Part shown: positions 1 to 41,798 of the stretch, in pieces
Position numbering within the stretch: the first letter of the stretch is position 1
Layout of the letters: every line of letters starts with the position of its first letter
Source of the DNA: a virus
Length of the DNA stretch: 41,798 nt
IMG/VR virus record: IMGVR_UViG_3300034156_000001
Coordinates: 1 to 41,798 of that record
Reading direction: 5' to 3' (one strand)
Translations under genes and position numbers: made by a program
The notes under the pieces: generated by a model
What the model was told of the DNA's origin: nothing
The model's database searches: none
What the model saw: the letters and a program-made list of their open reading frames with translations, nothing else

Positions 1-163
1 CCAGTGCGTCCTGGCGATCATCAGTGTGATAATCGGCGCCCTTCTGGTACACACCACCACGATGAAACCGTACCTTGAACTCTCCCCACTCGGCACCGTA
101 ATGGACCGTAGCGGTCTTGCCGTTCTCAGCGTTGATAAGGTCAGCGAACTTCTTGAAAGCCAT
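1..163 (-). CDS. Hypothetical early protein, 3'-truncated by window edge (copy A)
   Basis: N-terminal 54 codons of the protein encoded in full at 40712-40906. It starts MAFKKFADLINAENG, whereas the other copy has MS at the start. The remaining differences in this stretch are synonymous. The ATG overlaps the TGA of the upstream gene by one base (TGATG), so translational coupling is likely. The end is missing only because the window begins here. Function unknown; no recognised motif. Confidence 0.7.
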   Translation of the reverse strand, partial: MAFKKFADLINAENGKTATVHYGAEWGEFKVRFHRGGVYQKGADYHTDDRQDAL

Positions 164-645
164 CACTCCCGACCCTCAAGCCATGCGTTCAAGTGGCCCA
201 GGACGAAGGCCCGTTGATCCTCAGGGAAGGACCCTGTGGCATCTTCATGCTTGCTCTGTTCCACGGTGTCCGCGAAGTAGACCACAGAGCAAATCTCCTG
301 CCATTCTGGGTCAATCCAGCGCTTCAGGTCGAGCCACTGCATCCGTGCTAACGAGCACTCTTGTTCAAGGGTGAACTCAGCGTCATACAGCAGGTGACCA
401 TAGTCGTGCATCACACGGAACGTCACGTTACCAGACAGGCCGTAGATGGCCGTTTGGGAGAACTCAGAGGACACCCGCAGGAGACCCTGGGCAGCCTCAG
501 CCTTGAGGGCCTTATACGATTTTGGCGCATCATCAGCCACGCCCAGGGCCAGAGGCATTACCGTTTGATACTCGGCAATCTGCCTCTTGTAGGCGTCTAC
601 CAGAGTCGCGGCGATTGCAGCCAGGAGGAATTTAGAACCTTTCAT
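163..645 (-). CDS. Early protein with HDxxH motif, copy A
   Basis: 160 residues from the ATG at 645, which is preceded by AAGGTG; a GTG nine bases upstream is an alternative start. The N-terminus is hydrophobic (FLLAAIAATLV), followed by a soluble body. The motif HDYGH (residues 80-84) with acidic residues at 90, 94 and 96 recalls small phage proteins with an HDxxH putative metal site; no enzymatic role can be proven. It lies directly behind a phage promoter. About 13 residues differ from the copy at 40906-41388, while the HDYGH segment is unchanged. The early position suggests an anti-host role, which is an inference. Confidence 0.7.
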   Translation of the reverse strand: MKGSKFLLAAIAATLVDAYKRQIAEYQTVMPLALGVADDAPKSYKALKAEAAQGLLRVSSEFSQTAIYGLSGNVTFRVMHDYGHLLYDAEFTLEQECSLARMQWLDLKRWIDPEWQEICSVVYFADTVEQSKHEDATGSFPEDQRAFVLGHLNAWLEGRE

Positions 646-657
646 CGTTGTCACCTT

Positions 658-677
658 GCTTATGTGAGGGTATTAAG
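658..677 (-). promoter_or_regulatory. Phage RNA polymerase promoter, divergent (copy A)
   Basis: Minus-strand TTAATACCCTCACATAAG keeps the CCCTCAC core shared by the other phage promoters but departs from AATAACA or AAGAACA after it. It sits just upstream of the 160-residue early gene and is identical in the second copy at 41401-41420. Confidence 0.6.
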
Positions 678-723
678 AGTTGTTCCCAAAGGACACCGTA
701 TGATGGCCTTCAGTGAATCGCTC

Positions 724-885
724 TCAGTAGCCAGCCCAGGCCCGCAGTTCATCGTACTTCGTGAACGGCCACGGATGGACCTTGTTGTTCTCAGTGACCC
801 ACACGGAATACGTGCCATGGTCGTTCTTGTAGTAGGACTTGAACCAGTCGTGCTGCTGTGCCCACTTGACTTCTTGCATGGTCAT
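724..885 (-). CDS. Small conserved early protein, 53 aa (copy A)
   Basis: A 53-residue ORF beginning MTMQEVKWAQQHDWF and ending ELRAWAGY, rich in Trp, Tyr and Lys/Glu. AGGAG lies 8 bases before the ATG. Both differences from the second copy (positions 745 and 823) are synonymous, which is good evidence that this is translated. It is the first gene after the host promoters and boxA leader, the T7 gp0.3 position, but it shows no resemblance to Ocr. Function unknown. Confidence 0.75.
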   Translation of the reverse strand: MTMQEVKWAQQHDWFKSYYKNDHGTYSVWVTENNKVHPWPFTKYDELRAWAGY

Positions 886-1043
886 GCTGTGTATCTCCTA
901 AGTTGTTCCCTTAGCGCCCTTGCTGACCCTACCCGTGGCATCCGTTCAGGTCCTCAAAGTGTGCTAAAGGAAGGCTCAGAGCTTGCCTTCGTAGCGTTAC
1001 CGGAATCTTTCACCTGTTAGGGTGCCTGTCCGGCCATTCCAAG

Positions 1044-1056
1044 TTGTTAAAGAGCG
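1044..1056 (-). promoter_or_regulatory. boxA-like antitermination element
   Basis: Minus-strand CGCTCTTTAACAA matches the bacterial rRNA leader boxA (remembered as TGCTCTTTAACAA), which binds NusB-S10. It lies downstream of both host promoters and upstream of the first early gene, where it would load antitermination factors on host polymerase. Function is inferred from sequence match and position. Confidence 0.6.
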
Positions 1057-37475: not shown

Positions 37476-37483
37476 TAGAAGCT

Positions 37484-37507
37484 CCGTGTTCTTGTGAGGG
37501 TTTTAAA
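37484..37507 (-). promoter_or_regulatory. Phage promoter upstream of the phage RNA polymerase gene
   Basis: Minus strand TTTAAAACCCTCACAAGAAC, then ACGGAG; AAG subclass, one A shorter before the core. It overlaps the stop of the upstream gene and reads into gene 1. T7 has no own-type promoter directly before gene 1. Confidence 0.85.
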
Positions 37508-37512
37508 TTCCC

Positions 37513-37878
37513 TCAGCGTTGCACGGCCTTGATCCTGCCGCGAACGTCCTCCAACTTGTAGACAAACGTCTCGATCTTGCGATCATCCCGCAGGTCGTTA
37601 CTCAGCTTTATGATGCTGGCCGTTGTGTGCCCAACCATGCCCAGGCTGTGGGTCTGGTAGATGTCCTGTTGACGGTCCTTACTATATGACTCCTGGGTGA
37701 TACGCACGGTCGCCATGTCAATCTCAGCGGTCAACTTGTAGACCCAGCGACCACAAGGGCCCCAGCCGGTGTGCCAGTCGAGGACCTTATGGCCCGTAAC
37801 GGAAGCAACATGGCCGCGATCAGGGTCAATCAAGCGGGCATCTACTTCGATTGCGAACTTAATGCTGTGCAGGTTCAT
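37513..37878 (-). CDS. Hypothetical early protein before RNA polymerase
   Basis: 121 residues from the ATG at 37878 (MNLHSIKFAIEVDARLIDPD). An open reading upstream would add 23 unlikely residues in the previous gene. Contains a His/Trp segment DWHTGWGPCGRWVYKL and a charged C-terminus. Four-base spacing to its neighbour indicates an early operon. Family unknown. Confidence 0.72.
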   Translation of the reverse strand: MNLHSIKFAIEVDARLIDPDRGHVASVTGHKVLDWHTGWGPCGRWVYKLTAEIDMATVRITQESYSKDRQQDIYQTHSLGMVGHTTASIIKLSNDLRDDRKIETFVYKLEDVRGRIKAVQR

Positions 37879-37880
37879 CG

Positions 37881-38129
37881 TTAGATGCCTCGGCGGAAAC
37901 AGTTGGTGAAGTCGCCCCGTTCGGTGAAGTGCTGCGCACCCCGCCACCCTGGCAAGTCGAGACGGACCTGAATGGACCGCTGAAGCTCAGTGCGTTGAGC
38001 CCCGTAGCAGGCACCCATTACAGCCGCCTTGCCTTCAGGATGGGCCCGCATGGTCTGCTGAATAGCGAACTGCTTGGCGTCCATGATGGCCCGGTCCGTC
38101 TTGCCTAATTTCCGTTCTGTGCGGTGCAT
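37881..38129 (-). CDS. Hypothetical small basic early protein
   Basis: 82 residues, MHRTERKLGKTDRAIMDAKQ to FTERGDFTNCFRRGI; basic and Gln/Arg-rich. AAGGA lies 9 bases upstream of the ATG. It starts at the stop codon of the oxygenase-like gene. No family recognised. Confidence 0.68.
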   Translation of the reverse strand: MHRTERKLGKTDRAIMDAKQFAIQQTMRAHPEGKAAVMGACYGAQRTELQRSIQVRLDLPGWRGAQHFTERGDFTNCFRRGI

Positions 38130-38944
38130 TATTCTGAATCCTTGGTTTGGTTGTACCAGTGTACCAGCAGATTGCGAGTACCTTCGAGGACCGGGAGACC
38201 CATATGGAGCCTCGACCGGCCATTAAACAGCATTCCCCACCCTGGCGAGAGTTGAGGGACCACAGCGGGCTCCATGAAGGGTCCTTGATAGACCGCCGTG
38301 CCGCCGCCTGCATGACTATTGGACAGGGCCACCACCAGGGTCACCTCACTGTCATCGTCGAGATGCCAGCAGCCGTGAGGCGTGTTGTGAGGCTTGTACC
38401 GTGCCGCCTGGATGCTCATGCAGTCGCCCACTTCGACCCCGTAGAGGACCTGTACGAGCTTTGCCATGTAGGCGGCGTAGAGACCTCTGAGGCACTCATG
38501 CAGCTCATGGTCCTTGTTGACCAGAATCAGCTCAGGTATCTGCGCGGAGAGTGGCTCTTCCTCGTTCACAGCATACTGCAACAGCTCGAAGCTATTGAGC
38601 ATCTGCTGGCAAAACAGAGGGTTGAGGTAGCGCGCCGCATAGACCCCTGGCGCTACCTGCATCACGTTCTCATACAGGAAGTTGCGCCACGCTGGATTCA
38701 TGCGCAAGGCCCGAGGCCCAACCGGCTGGTTGCCTTCATCGGCATAGTCGATCATCTCATTGAGCAGGGCGATACCGTCCCACAGCCCAGGCGCCAGCTT
38801 GTCCCATCGGCACGCCCATCGGCACGCCCATCGGCTTACCACGCCAGCAGCCACCAGATCCACCTGACCTCGGCGCGCTACTCCATTATTCAGGGCCGCG
38901 TCGATGGCATGAACTACGTTCGCTGACAGATGGCTACGATTCAT
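38129..38944 (-). CDS. Probable 2OG-Fe(II) oxygenase (prolyl hydroxylase-like)
   Basis: 271 residues. The C-terminal half carries the iron/2-oxoglutarate facial triad: HLD at 194-196, His247 (GRSRLHMGLPVLEGTR) and the 2OG-binding Arg257. VTLVVALSNSHAGGGTAVYQ supplies the beta-strand and GG turn of the P4H jelly-roll fold. The N-terminal half is helical and unassigned, with an odd RWACRWACRW repeat from a 12-bp DNA repeat. Such enzymes hydroxylate or demethylate protein, nucleic acid or metabolites. Early expression points to modification of a host target. The substrate is unknown. Confidence 0.82.
   Translation of the reverse strand: MNRSHLSANVVHAIDAALNNGVARRGQVDLVAAGVVSRWACRWACRWDKLAPGLWDGIALLNEMIDYADEGNQPVGPRALRMNPAWRNFLYENVMQVAPGVYAARYLNPLFCQQMLNSFELLQYAVNEEEPLSAQIPELILVNKDHELHECLRGLYAAYMAKLVQVLYGVEVGDCMSIQAARYKPHNTPHGCWHLDDDSEVTLVVALSNSHAGGGTAVYQGPFMEPAVVPQLSPGWGMLFNGRSRLHMGLPVLEGTRNLLVHWYNQTKDSE
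38803..38835. repeat. 12-bp tandem repeat in the oxygenase gene
   Basis: CCCATCGGCACG twice, then CCCATCGGC. It encodes RWAC units near residues 38-47. Multiples of 12 keep the frame, so copy number can vary without breaking the gene. Confidence 0.85.
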
Positions 38945-40711: not shown

Positions 40712-40906
40712 TCAGTCGTTGTTGATGAAGTGTGCAGCGGTGCCCAGTGCGTCCTGGCGATCATCAGTGTGATAATCGGCGCCCTTCTGGTACACACCAC
40801 CACGATGAAACCGTACCTTGAACTCTCCCCACTCGGCACCGTAATGGACCGTAGCGGTCTTGCCGTTCTCGGCGTTGATCAGGTCAGCAAACTTCTTGAA
40901 GGACAT
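40712..40906 (-). CDS. Hypothetical early protein, complete copy
   Basis: 64 residues, MSFKKFADLINAENGKTATV to GTAAHFINND. The ATG overlaps the stop of the 160-residue gene (TGATG). Most of its length is duplicated at window start, where the second residue differs. No family recognised. Confidence 0.75.
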   Translation of the reverse strand: MSFKKFADLINAENGKTATVHYGAEWGEFKVRFHRGGVYQKGADYHTDDRQDALGTAAHFINND

Positions 40907-41388
40907 CAGCCACGACCCTCAAGCCATGCGTTCAAGTGGCCCAGGACGAAGGCCCGTTGATCCTCAGGGAAGGACTCTGTGGCCGCTTCATGCTTGCTTT
41001 GCTCCACTGTGTCCGCGAAGTAGACCACAGAGCAAATCTCACGCCATTCAGGCTCAATCCAGCGCCTCAAGTCGAGCCACTGGGTCCGTGCTAACGAGCA
41101 CTCTTGTTCAAGGGTGAACTCAGCGTCATACAGTAGGTGACCATAATCGTGCATCACACGGAACGTCACGTTACCGGACAGGCCGTAGATGGCCGTATCG
41201 GAGAACTCAGATGACACCCGTAGGAGACCCTGGGCAGCTTCTGCCTTGAGGTCCGTATAGGTGTTTGGTGCATCGAAGGCCACGCCCAGAGCCAGTGGCA
41301 TTACCGTTTGATACTCGGCAATCTGTCTCTTGTAGGCGTCTACCAGAGTCGCGGCGATTGCAGCCAGGAGGAATTTAGAGCCTTTCAT
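40906..41388 (-). CDS. Early protein with HDxxH motif, copy B
   Basis: 160 residues from the ATG at 41388. Relative to copy A it has for example GVAFDAPNTYTDLKAE instead of GVADDAPKSYKALKAE, and the end GRG instead of GRE. The HDYGH motif, the hydrophobic start and the central FRVMHDYGHLLYDAEFTLEQ are unchanged. Forty of the 55 substitutions between copies lie here, some 8% of its bases, so it evolves faster than its neighbours, as anti-host genes often do. Expressed from the adjacent phage promoter and from the host promoters upstream. Confidence 0.72.
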   Translation of the reverse strand: MKGSKFLLAAIAATLVDAYKRQIAEYQTVMPLALGVAFDAPNTYTDLKAEAAQGLLRVSSEFSDTAIYGLSGNVTFRVMHDYGHLLYDAEFTLEQECSLARTQWLDLRRWIEPEWREICSVVYFADTVEQSKHEAATESFPEDQRAFVLGHLNAWLEGRG

Positions 41389-41400
41389 CGTTGTCACCTT

Positions 41401-41420
41401 GCTTATGTGAGGGTATTAAG
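41401..41420 (-). promoter_or_regulatory. Phage promoter, divergent (copy B)
   Basis: Same sequence as 658-677; CCCTCAC core followed by ATAAGC. Confidence 0.6.
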
Positions 41421-41466
41421 AGTTGTTCCCAAAGGGCACCTTATGATGACCTTCAGTGAATCGCTC

Positions 41467-41628
41467 TCAGTAGCCAGCCCAGGCCCGTAGTTCATCGTAC
41501 TTCGTGAACGGCCACGGATGGACCTTGTTGTTCTCAGTGACCCACACGGAATACGTGCCATGGTCATTCTTGTAGTAGGACTTGAACCAGTCGTGCTGCT
41601 GTGCCCACTTGACTTCTTGCATGGTCAT
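41467..41628 (-). CDS. Small conserved early protein, 53 aa (copy B)
   Basis: Protein identical to copy A at 724-885. AGGAG precedes the ATG. It is the first gene of the early operon on this end of the contig; its upstream host promoters are only present in the other copy because the window stops at 41798. Confidence 0.75.
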   Translation of the reverse strand: MTMQEVKWAQQHDWFKSYYKNDHGTYSVWVTENNKVHPWPFTKYDELRAWAGY

Positions 41629-41798
41629 ACTGTGCATCTCCTAAGTTGTTCCCTTAGCGCCATTGCTTACCCTACCCGTGACATCCGTTCAGGTCCTCAA
41701 AGTGTGCTAAAGGAAGGCTCAGAGCTTGCCTTCGTAGCGTTACCGGAATCTTTCACCTGTTAGGGTGCCTGTCCGGCCATTCCAAGTTGTTAAAGAGC

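Follow-up and report, generated by a model that had tools for sequence, protein, structure and literature searches.

A lysyl-hydroxylase-like 2OG-Fe(II) oxygenase encoded upstream of the RNA polymerase gene in a T7-like phage and its Pseudomonas-phage relatives

The 41,798-nucleotide virus record IMGVR_UViG_3300034156_000001, analysed here over its whole length (the window), encodes a 271-residue enzyme that profile searches and a predicted fold place in the lysyl-hydroxylase (PLOD/LH) branch of the 2OG-Fe(II) oxygenases. We propose, with a probability of roughly 0.4, that this hydroxylase is probably made early in infection and most likely modifies a side chain, probably that of lysine, on a Pseudomonas host protein, with a conditional advantage to the phage. 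Homologues of the gene are already public, many of them with a 2OG-oxygenase annotation; what is added here is the lysyl-hydroxylase placement, the distribution over hosts and phage lineages, and the existence of natural catalytic-null copies. No experimental function of the gene was found in the literature searched, although absence there is not proof, and the functions of viral 2OG oxygenases had not been specifically investigated as of 2022 (PMC9602691).

The source DNA comes from a T7-like phage, as it encodes a T7-type RNA polymerase, a DNA ligase and a T7 tail-fibre domain; among public records, Psari100M and Pf17397_F_PD1 are closest to it. A gapless direct repeat of 1055 bp is positioned at the ends of the window (1-1055 and 40744-41798) with 94.8% identity between the copies; since true terminal repeats are expected to be identical, the contig may mix strains. 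The features surrounding the oxygenase gene are listed in Table 1.

Table 1. Positions in the window of the oxygenase gene and of neighbouring features
Feature	Position	Strand	Remarks
2OG-Fe(II) oxygenase gene, lysyl-hydroxylase (PLOD)-like by profile and predicted fold, 271 aa	38129..38944	-	predicted iron ligands H194, D196, H247; predicted 2OG ligands Y183, R257
12-bp tandem repeat, 2.8 perfect copies	38803..38835	-	encodes WACR-WACR-W, oxygenase residues 39-47
Neighbouring gene, phrog_8679, 177 aa	38941..39474	-	stop codon overlaps oxygenase start
Small downstream gene, phrog_7066, 82 aa	37881..38129	-	PHROG match
Downstream gene, phage T3 gene 1.05-like	37513..37947	-	PF25755
Most upstream T7-type promoter-like site, AACCCTCACAAGAACA core	37483..37508	-	separates early block from RNA polymerase gene
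T7-type single-subunit RNA polymerase gene, 886 aa	34726..37386	-	PHROG match

The oxygenase reading frame is a genuine gene that evolves under purifying selection: its ATG overlaps the stop codon of the upstream gene and is preceded by a GGAG motif, and dN/dS values of 0.22/0.99 against Psari100M and 0.38/1.93 against PSA6 were obtained. An antisense frame of 259 codons (38147-38926, plus strand) was considered as a gene and rejected, as most relatives have it broken and high GC3 accounts for its existence; it is probably an artefact of composition. The initial annotation had read the gene as encoding a 2OG-Fe(II) oxygenase-like enzyme and suggested a profile search, and the reading is borne out, well beyond what chance would give, by a match to PHROG_61, '2OG-Fe(II) oxygenase' (E 5.9e-32), together with a confident fold and invariant catalytic residues; Pfam alone gives a weak match to PF03171 (E 0.0095). 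By profile, the window protein is a member of PHROG_61, a broad grouping of oxygenases of tailed phages, cyanophages included, whereas the Pseudomonas subfamily possesses an invariant signature of its own, N-x2-E...IPE and HxDxDS.

The four catalytic residues named at the outset (His194, Asp196, His247 and Arg257) stand exactly at these positions in the 271-residue translation and are invariant in homologue alignments of 12, 32 and 33 sequences. The last of these alignments consists of intact relatives, with a lowest pairwise identity of 28%, and in it Tyr183, the second predicted 2OG-binding residue, is likewise invariant, along with N127, E130, I136, P137, E138, Q179, W193, D198 and S199. 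The expectation of a jelly-roll core holding the four residues together agrees with the AlphaFold2 model (pLDDT 87.5, pTM 0.84; confident over approximately residues 45-265, with a core above 90), which has a double-stranded beta-helix fold and matches many 2OG oxygenases in Foldseek; the placement of the residues was taken from sequence and fold alignments. The iron and 2OG ligands of mimivirus L230 are H825, D827, H877, Y814 and R887 (PMC5802723), and on the phage enzyme they map, one to one, to H194, D196, H247, Y183 and R257. From these sequence and model comparisons, the window enzyme is very probably an active Fe(II)/2OG-dependent hydroxylase.

A prolyl-hydroxylase-type framework, as initially described, proved only loosely right. 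In profile searches against solved structures, the nearest relatives were the lysyl hydroxylases LH3 (E 7.6e-14) and L230 (E 3.8e-8), with prolyl 4-hydroxylase at E 0.28, and a repeat with 32 sequences agreed (prolyl 4-hydroxylase, E 0.14). Similarly, the top 15 Foldseek matches in the PDB were without exception structures of LH3 or L230 (E 7e-12 to 1e-9), followed by the amino-acid halogenases of the BesD/Hal type (BesD, HalB and HalD), PolD, PHD2 and others. The best viral match was a megavirus procollagen-lysine 5-dioxygenase. The human LH3 domain matches PF25238 and PF03171 (OGFOD2-like and 2OG-FeII_Oxy); the window protein hits these two families in the same order, but scores below the Pfam cut-off for each. 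Membership among the prolyl 4-hydroxylases was rejected on these E values and on the rank of PHD2 below the lysyl-hydroxylase structures. The BesD/Hal-type halogenases carry a glycine where the iron-binding aspartate would sit, whereas D196 is invariant in the phage family, and membership among the lysine halogenases was rejected as well.

The C-terminal LH domain of human LH3 (PLOD3), the top profile and fold match, shares with the phage enzyme the HxD...H...R set and the 2OG tyrosine. In contrast to LH3, the phage enzyme stands alone, no glycosyltransferase domain being present on the chain in family members (approximately 230-271 aa), and it has one extra residue after HxD, with the invariant aspartate D198; identity in the fold alignment is about 23%, and collagen is absent in a bacterium. 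The LH domain of L230 (6ax6) is itself a viral 2OG lysyl hydroxylase, but identity to it is 18%, and L873, the leucine of its tail-to-tail dimer, is not kept in the phage family, in which S, T, A, L, Q, H or R occupies the position. In addition, no Gly-X-Y repeat of at least 5 triplets was found on the coding strand of the window. Since the dimer leucine is not conserved and the window phage encodes no such collagen-like repeat, a collagen-like substrate is unlikely and was rejected.

The 12-bp repeat within the gene, noted initially as a possible source of phase-length variation, does exist and is in frame, but the proposed variation found no support. As the length of the repeat unit is divisible by three, copy-number changes would leave the reading frame intact, and phase variation was rejected in view of this and of the poor conservation of the N-terminus. 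The repeat is confined to the window phage, the WACR peptide motif being single-copy in the closest relatives, and it sits at the edge of the low-confidence N-terminal stretch of the model (residues 23-40, pLDDT below 50). The N-terminus of the window enzyme and of its closest relatives is longer and more variable than that of other Pseudomonas-phage homologues.

The coding strand of the window carries ten T7-type promoter-like sites whose core has one mismatch at most, and two weaker ones; eight are exact copies, and none occurs on the other strand or in a reversed control. The most upstream of these sites lies 3' of the oxygenase gene. One more single-mismatch match falls inside the gene without the conserved flanks and was taken as chance. 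All phage promoters found are thus downstream of the gene; by analogy with T7, early expression is likely, and the gene is likely transcribed by the host RNA polymerase. Of the early-operon assignment in the initial annotation, the T7-like phage and the place ahead of all phage promoters stand, and early timing is likely by position. What counts against this timing is that matches to host sigma-70 promoters in the window were not above chance and that, in phi15, a phage promoter is annotated just before the homologue of the gene neighbouring the oxygenase.

Homologues of the oxygenase were detected by tblastn in 195 phage records, 191 of them from Pseudomonas phages (one spelt 'Psuedomonas'); the other four are named for Salmonella, Dickeya, Xanthomonas and Providencia. 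A related RNA polymerase occurs in 1337 records, only 144 of which are from Pseudomonas phages, and the comparison of the two proportions ties the oxygenase family to Pseudomonas, an association for which phage phylogeny partly accounts. The counts agree with the earlier remark that T7 lacks such a gene, which is common, and annotated, in Pseudomonas T7-like phages. A scan with a 12-member oxygenase profile yielded 31 loci in IMG/VR, and profile searches yielded one confirmed bacterial locus among genomes taken one per bacterial species, and three in 300 Pseudomonas genomes. On a Pseudomonas rubra contig (L046, 1094-10427), a phage integrase gene adjoins an early block with a phrog_8679-type neighbour, a T7-type RNA polymerase and a DNA ligase, and this locus is apparently an integrated T7-like prophage, judging from its gene content. 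A gene similar to the upstream neighbour of the oxygenase is present at a further locus (L049) as well.

In Studiervirinae, the oxygenase gene precedes the RNA polymerase gene, and the oxygenases of Pifdecavirus, Ghunavirus, Troedvirus and other Pseudomonas phages are direct homologues, 40-75% identical, in this same position. Further carriers include phi-2 of the Krylovirinae, other Autographiviridae, and phages of 61-63 kb outside the Autographiviridae. The gene is located just before the DNA primase gene in Bf7, Luutsna-1 and Kurepalu-1, and near replication genes in Itty13 and Skulduggery (61-63 kb). In a maximum-likelihood tree, the Studiervirinae copies cluster with two prophage copies, and those of Itty13, Luutsna and phi-2 lie apart. 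S-TIP37, another T7-like phage, also encodes a 2OG oxygenase.

Several relatives have lost the enzyme. ORF8 of phi15 (L047, FR823298; 3472-3888) consists of the first approximately 100 residues of the oxygenase fused to the tail of a downstream gene, and comparison with Stalingrad shows that about 1 kb is missing, with deletion of the catalytic domain. The phTUNSm copy is truncated immediately past the first iron histidine; in PMBT23, only a C-terminal remnant of 54 residues survives. As these three phages lack catalytic residues, the oxygenase is accessory and dispensable in at least some phages. The copies of PSV6 and phiGM22-3 have one apparent frameshift each, for which sequencing error is possible.

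Of 21 Studiervirinae loci from IMG/VR, 19 have a homologue of phrog_8679 upstream of the oxygenase, and the remaining two (L026 and L028) are at contig ends. The window protein of this gene has no Pfam match and, despite a confident model (pLDDT 93), no significant fold match in the PDB. An obligate enzyme-partner pair was rejected, since no neighbour homologue was found outside the Studiervirinae and since phi15, which has lost the enzyme, still has the neighbour.

In the proposed mechanism, H194, D196 and H247 would bind Fe(II), and Y183 and R257 would bind 2OG, so that O2 would be activated at this centre for hydroxylation of a side chain. Peptidyl lysine is the substrate of the nearest relatives, and the target proposed is therefore a lysine of a host protein in Pseudomonas, the modification of which would benefit the phage on certain hosts or in certain conditions, not all. 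A protein side chain is somewhat favoured as the substrate; if it is one, lysine is the more probable residue, by a similarly modest degree of confidence, and a host protein is the target with rather greater confidence. The host target is favoured by the likely early position, the accessory status and the near restriction to Pseudomonas phages. A bolder proposal, which we consider unlikely, is that several unrelated lineages of Pseudomonas phages share a bacterial-virus lysyl hydroxylase, akin to the collagen enzymes of animals, with which a host protein is marked early in infection; such protein hydroxylation for host takeover or counter-defence would be undescribed in the literature searched.

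Among other targets, a phage protein seems improbable, for instance what the overlapping upstream gene encodes or some other virion protein that is made early. The phrog_8679 homologue does lie directly upstream in the Studiervirinae loci reaching that far, its phi15 counterpart is annotated as a virion structural protein, and two early gene products were detected in phi15 particles by mass spectrometry (PMC3079711). However, phi15 has the neighbour without the catalytic domain, phages outside the Studiervirinae carry the enzyme with no neighbour homologue detected beside it, and synteny shared by close relatives is weak functional evidence; the phrog_8679 product as substrate is possible but unsupported. 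DNA and RNA hydroxylases exist among the 2OG oxygenases, and the location near replication genes in the 61-63 kb phages and the Bf7, Luutsna-1 and Kurepalu-1 group would suit an AlkB- or TET/JBP-like action on phage DNA or host RNA, for restriction protection or a tRNA change. The profile and fold matches are nevertheless to lysyl hydroxylases, amino-acid halogenases and prolyl hydroxylases, and neither AlkB nor TET appears among the 50 entries listed. The match to phrog_2297 is limited to the catalytic stretch (181-266), and the name of that family, 'DNA endonuclease', is probably wrong; a nucleic-acid target is the least probable of those weighed here.

As the halogenases of free lysine or ornithine (BesD, HalB and HalD) come next in the structural ranking, a free amino acid is possible as substrate, and a role in 2-oxoglutarate levels has been proposed for cyanophage 2OG oxygenases (PMC9602691). 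Against an enzyme acting on free lysine or another metabolite, or mainly shifting the 2-oxoglutarate level of the cell, the best matches are peptidyl-lysine hydroxylases, and the iron-ligand aspartate is kept, unlike in the halogenases; we give it little weight. Hydroxylation of a Pseudomonas anti-phage defence protein or signal, suppressing defence, is a narrower form of the host-protein reading. It would suit a gene that is likely early, accessory, repeatedly lost and nearly restricted to one host genus, and there is a weak match to the PADLOC '2OG' model (E 1.6e-6), for the generic fold only. But this accessory pattern is compatible with many roles, and neither a defence-linked partner nor a known anti-defence homologue was found; so specific a target is doubtful.

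The 2OG oxygenases are widespread in phages, and the Pseudomonas-phage family is a good test case, with small T7-like phages, culturable hosts, a clear catalytic signature and natural catalytic-null relatives such as phi15, to be compared with Stalingrad. The lysine-hydroxylation hypothesis is open to proteomics.

The comparison also exposed misannotation. Existing labels on the homologues are often '2OG-Fe(II) oxygenase', also hydroxylase, and sometimes 'glycosyltransferase', which is wrong; the last is found on several records, among them L008 (3702-4406), and the bifunctional PLOD enzymes are its probable source. In phi-2 (L057, NC_013638), an intact oxygenase frame at 1953-2654 is unannotated, and two other hypothetical genes are drawn there.
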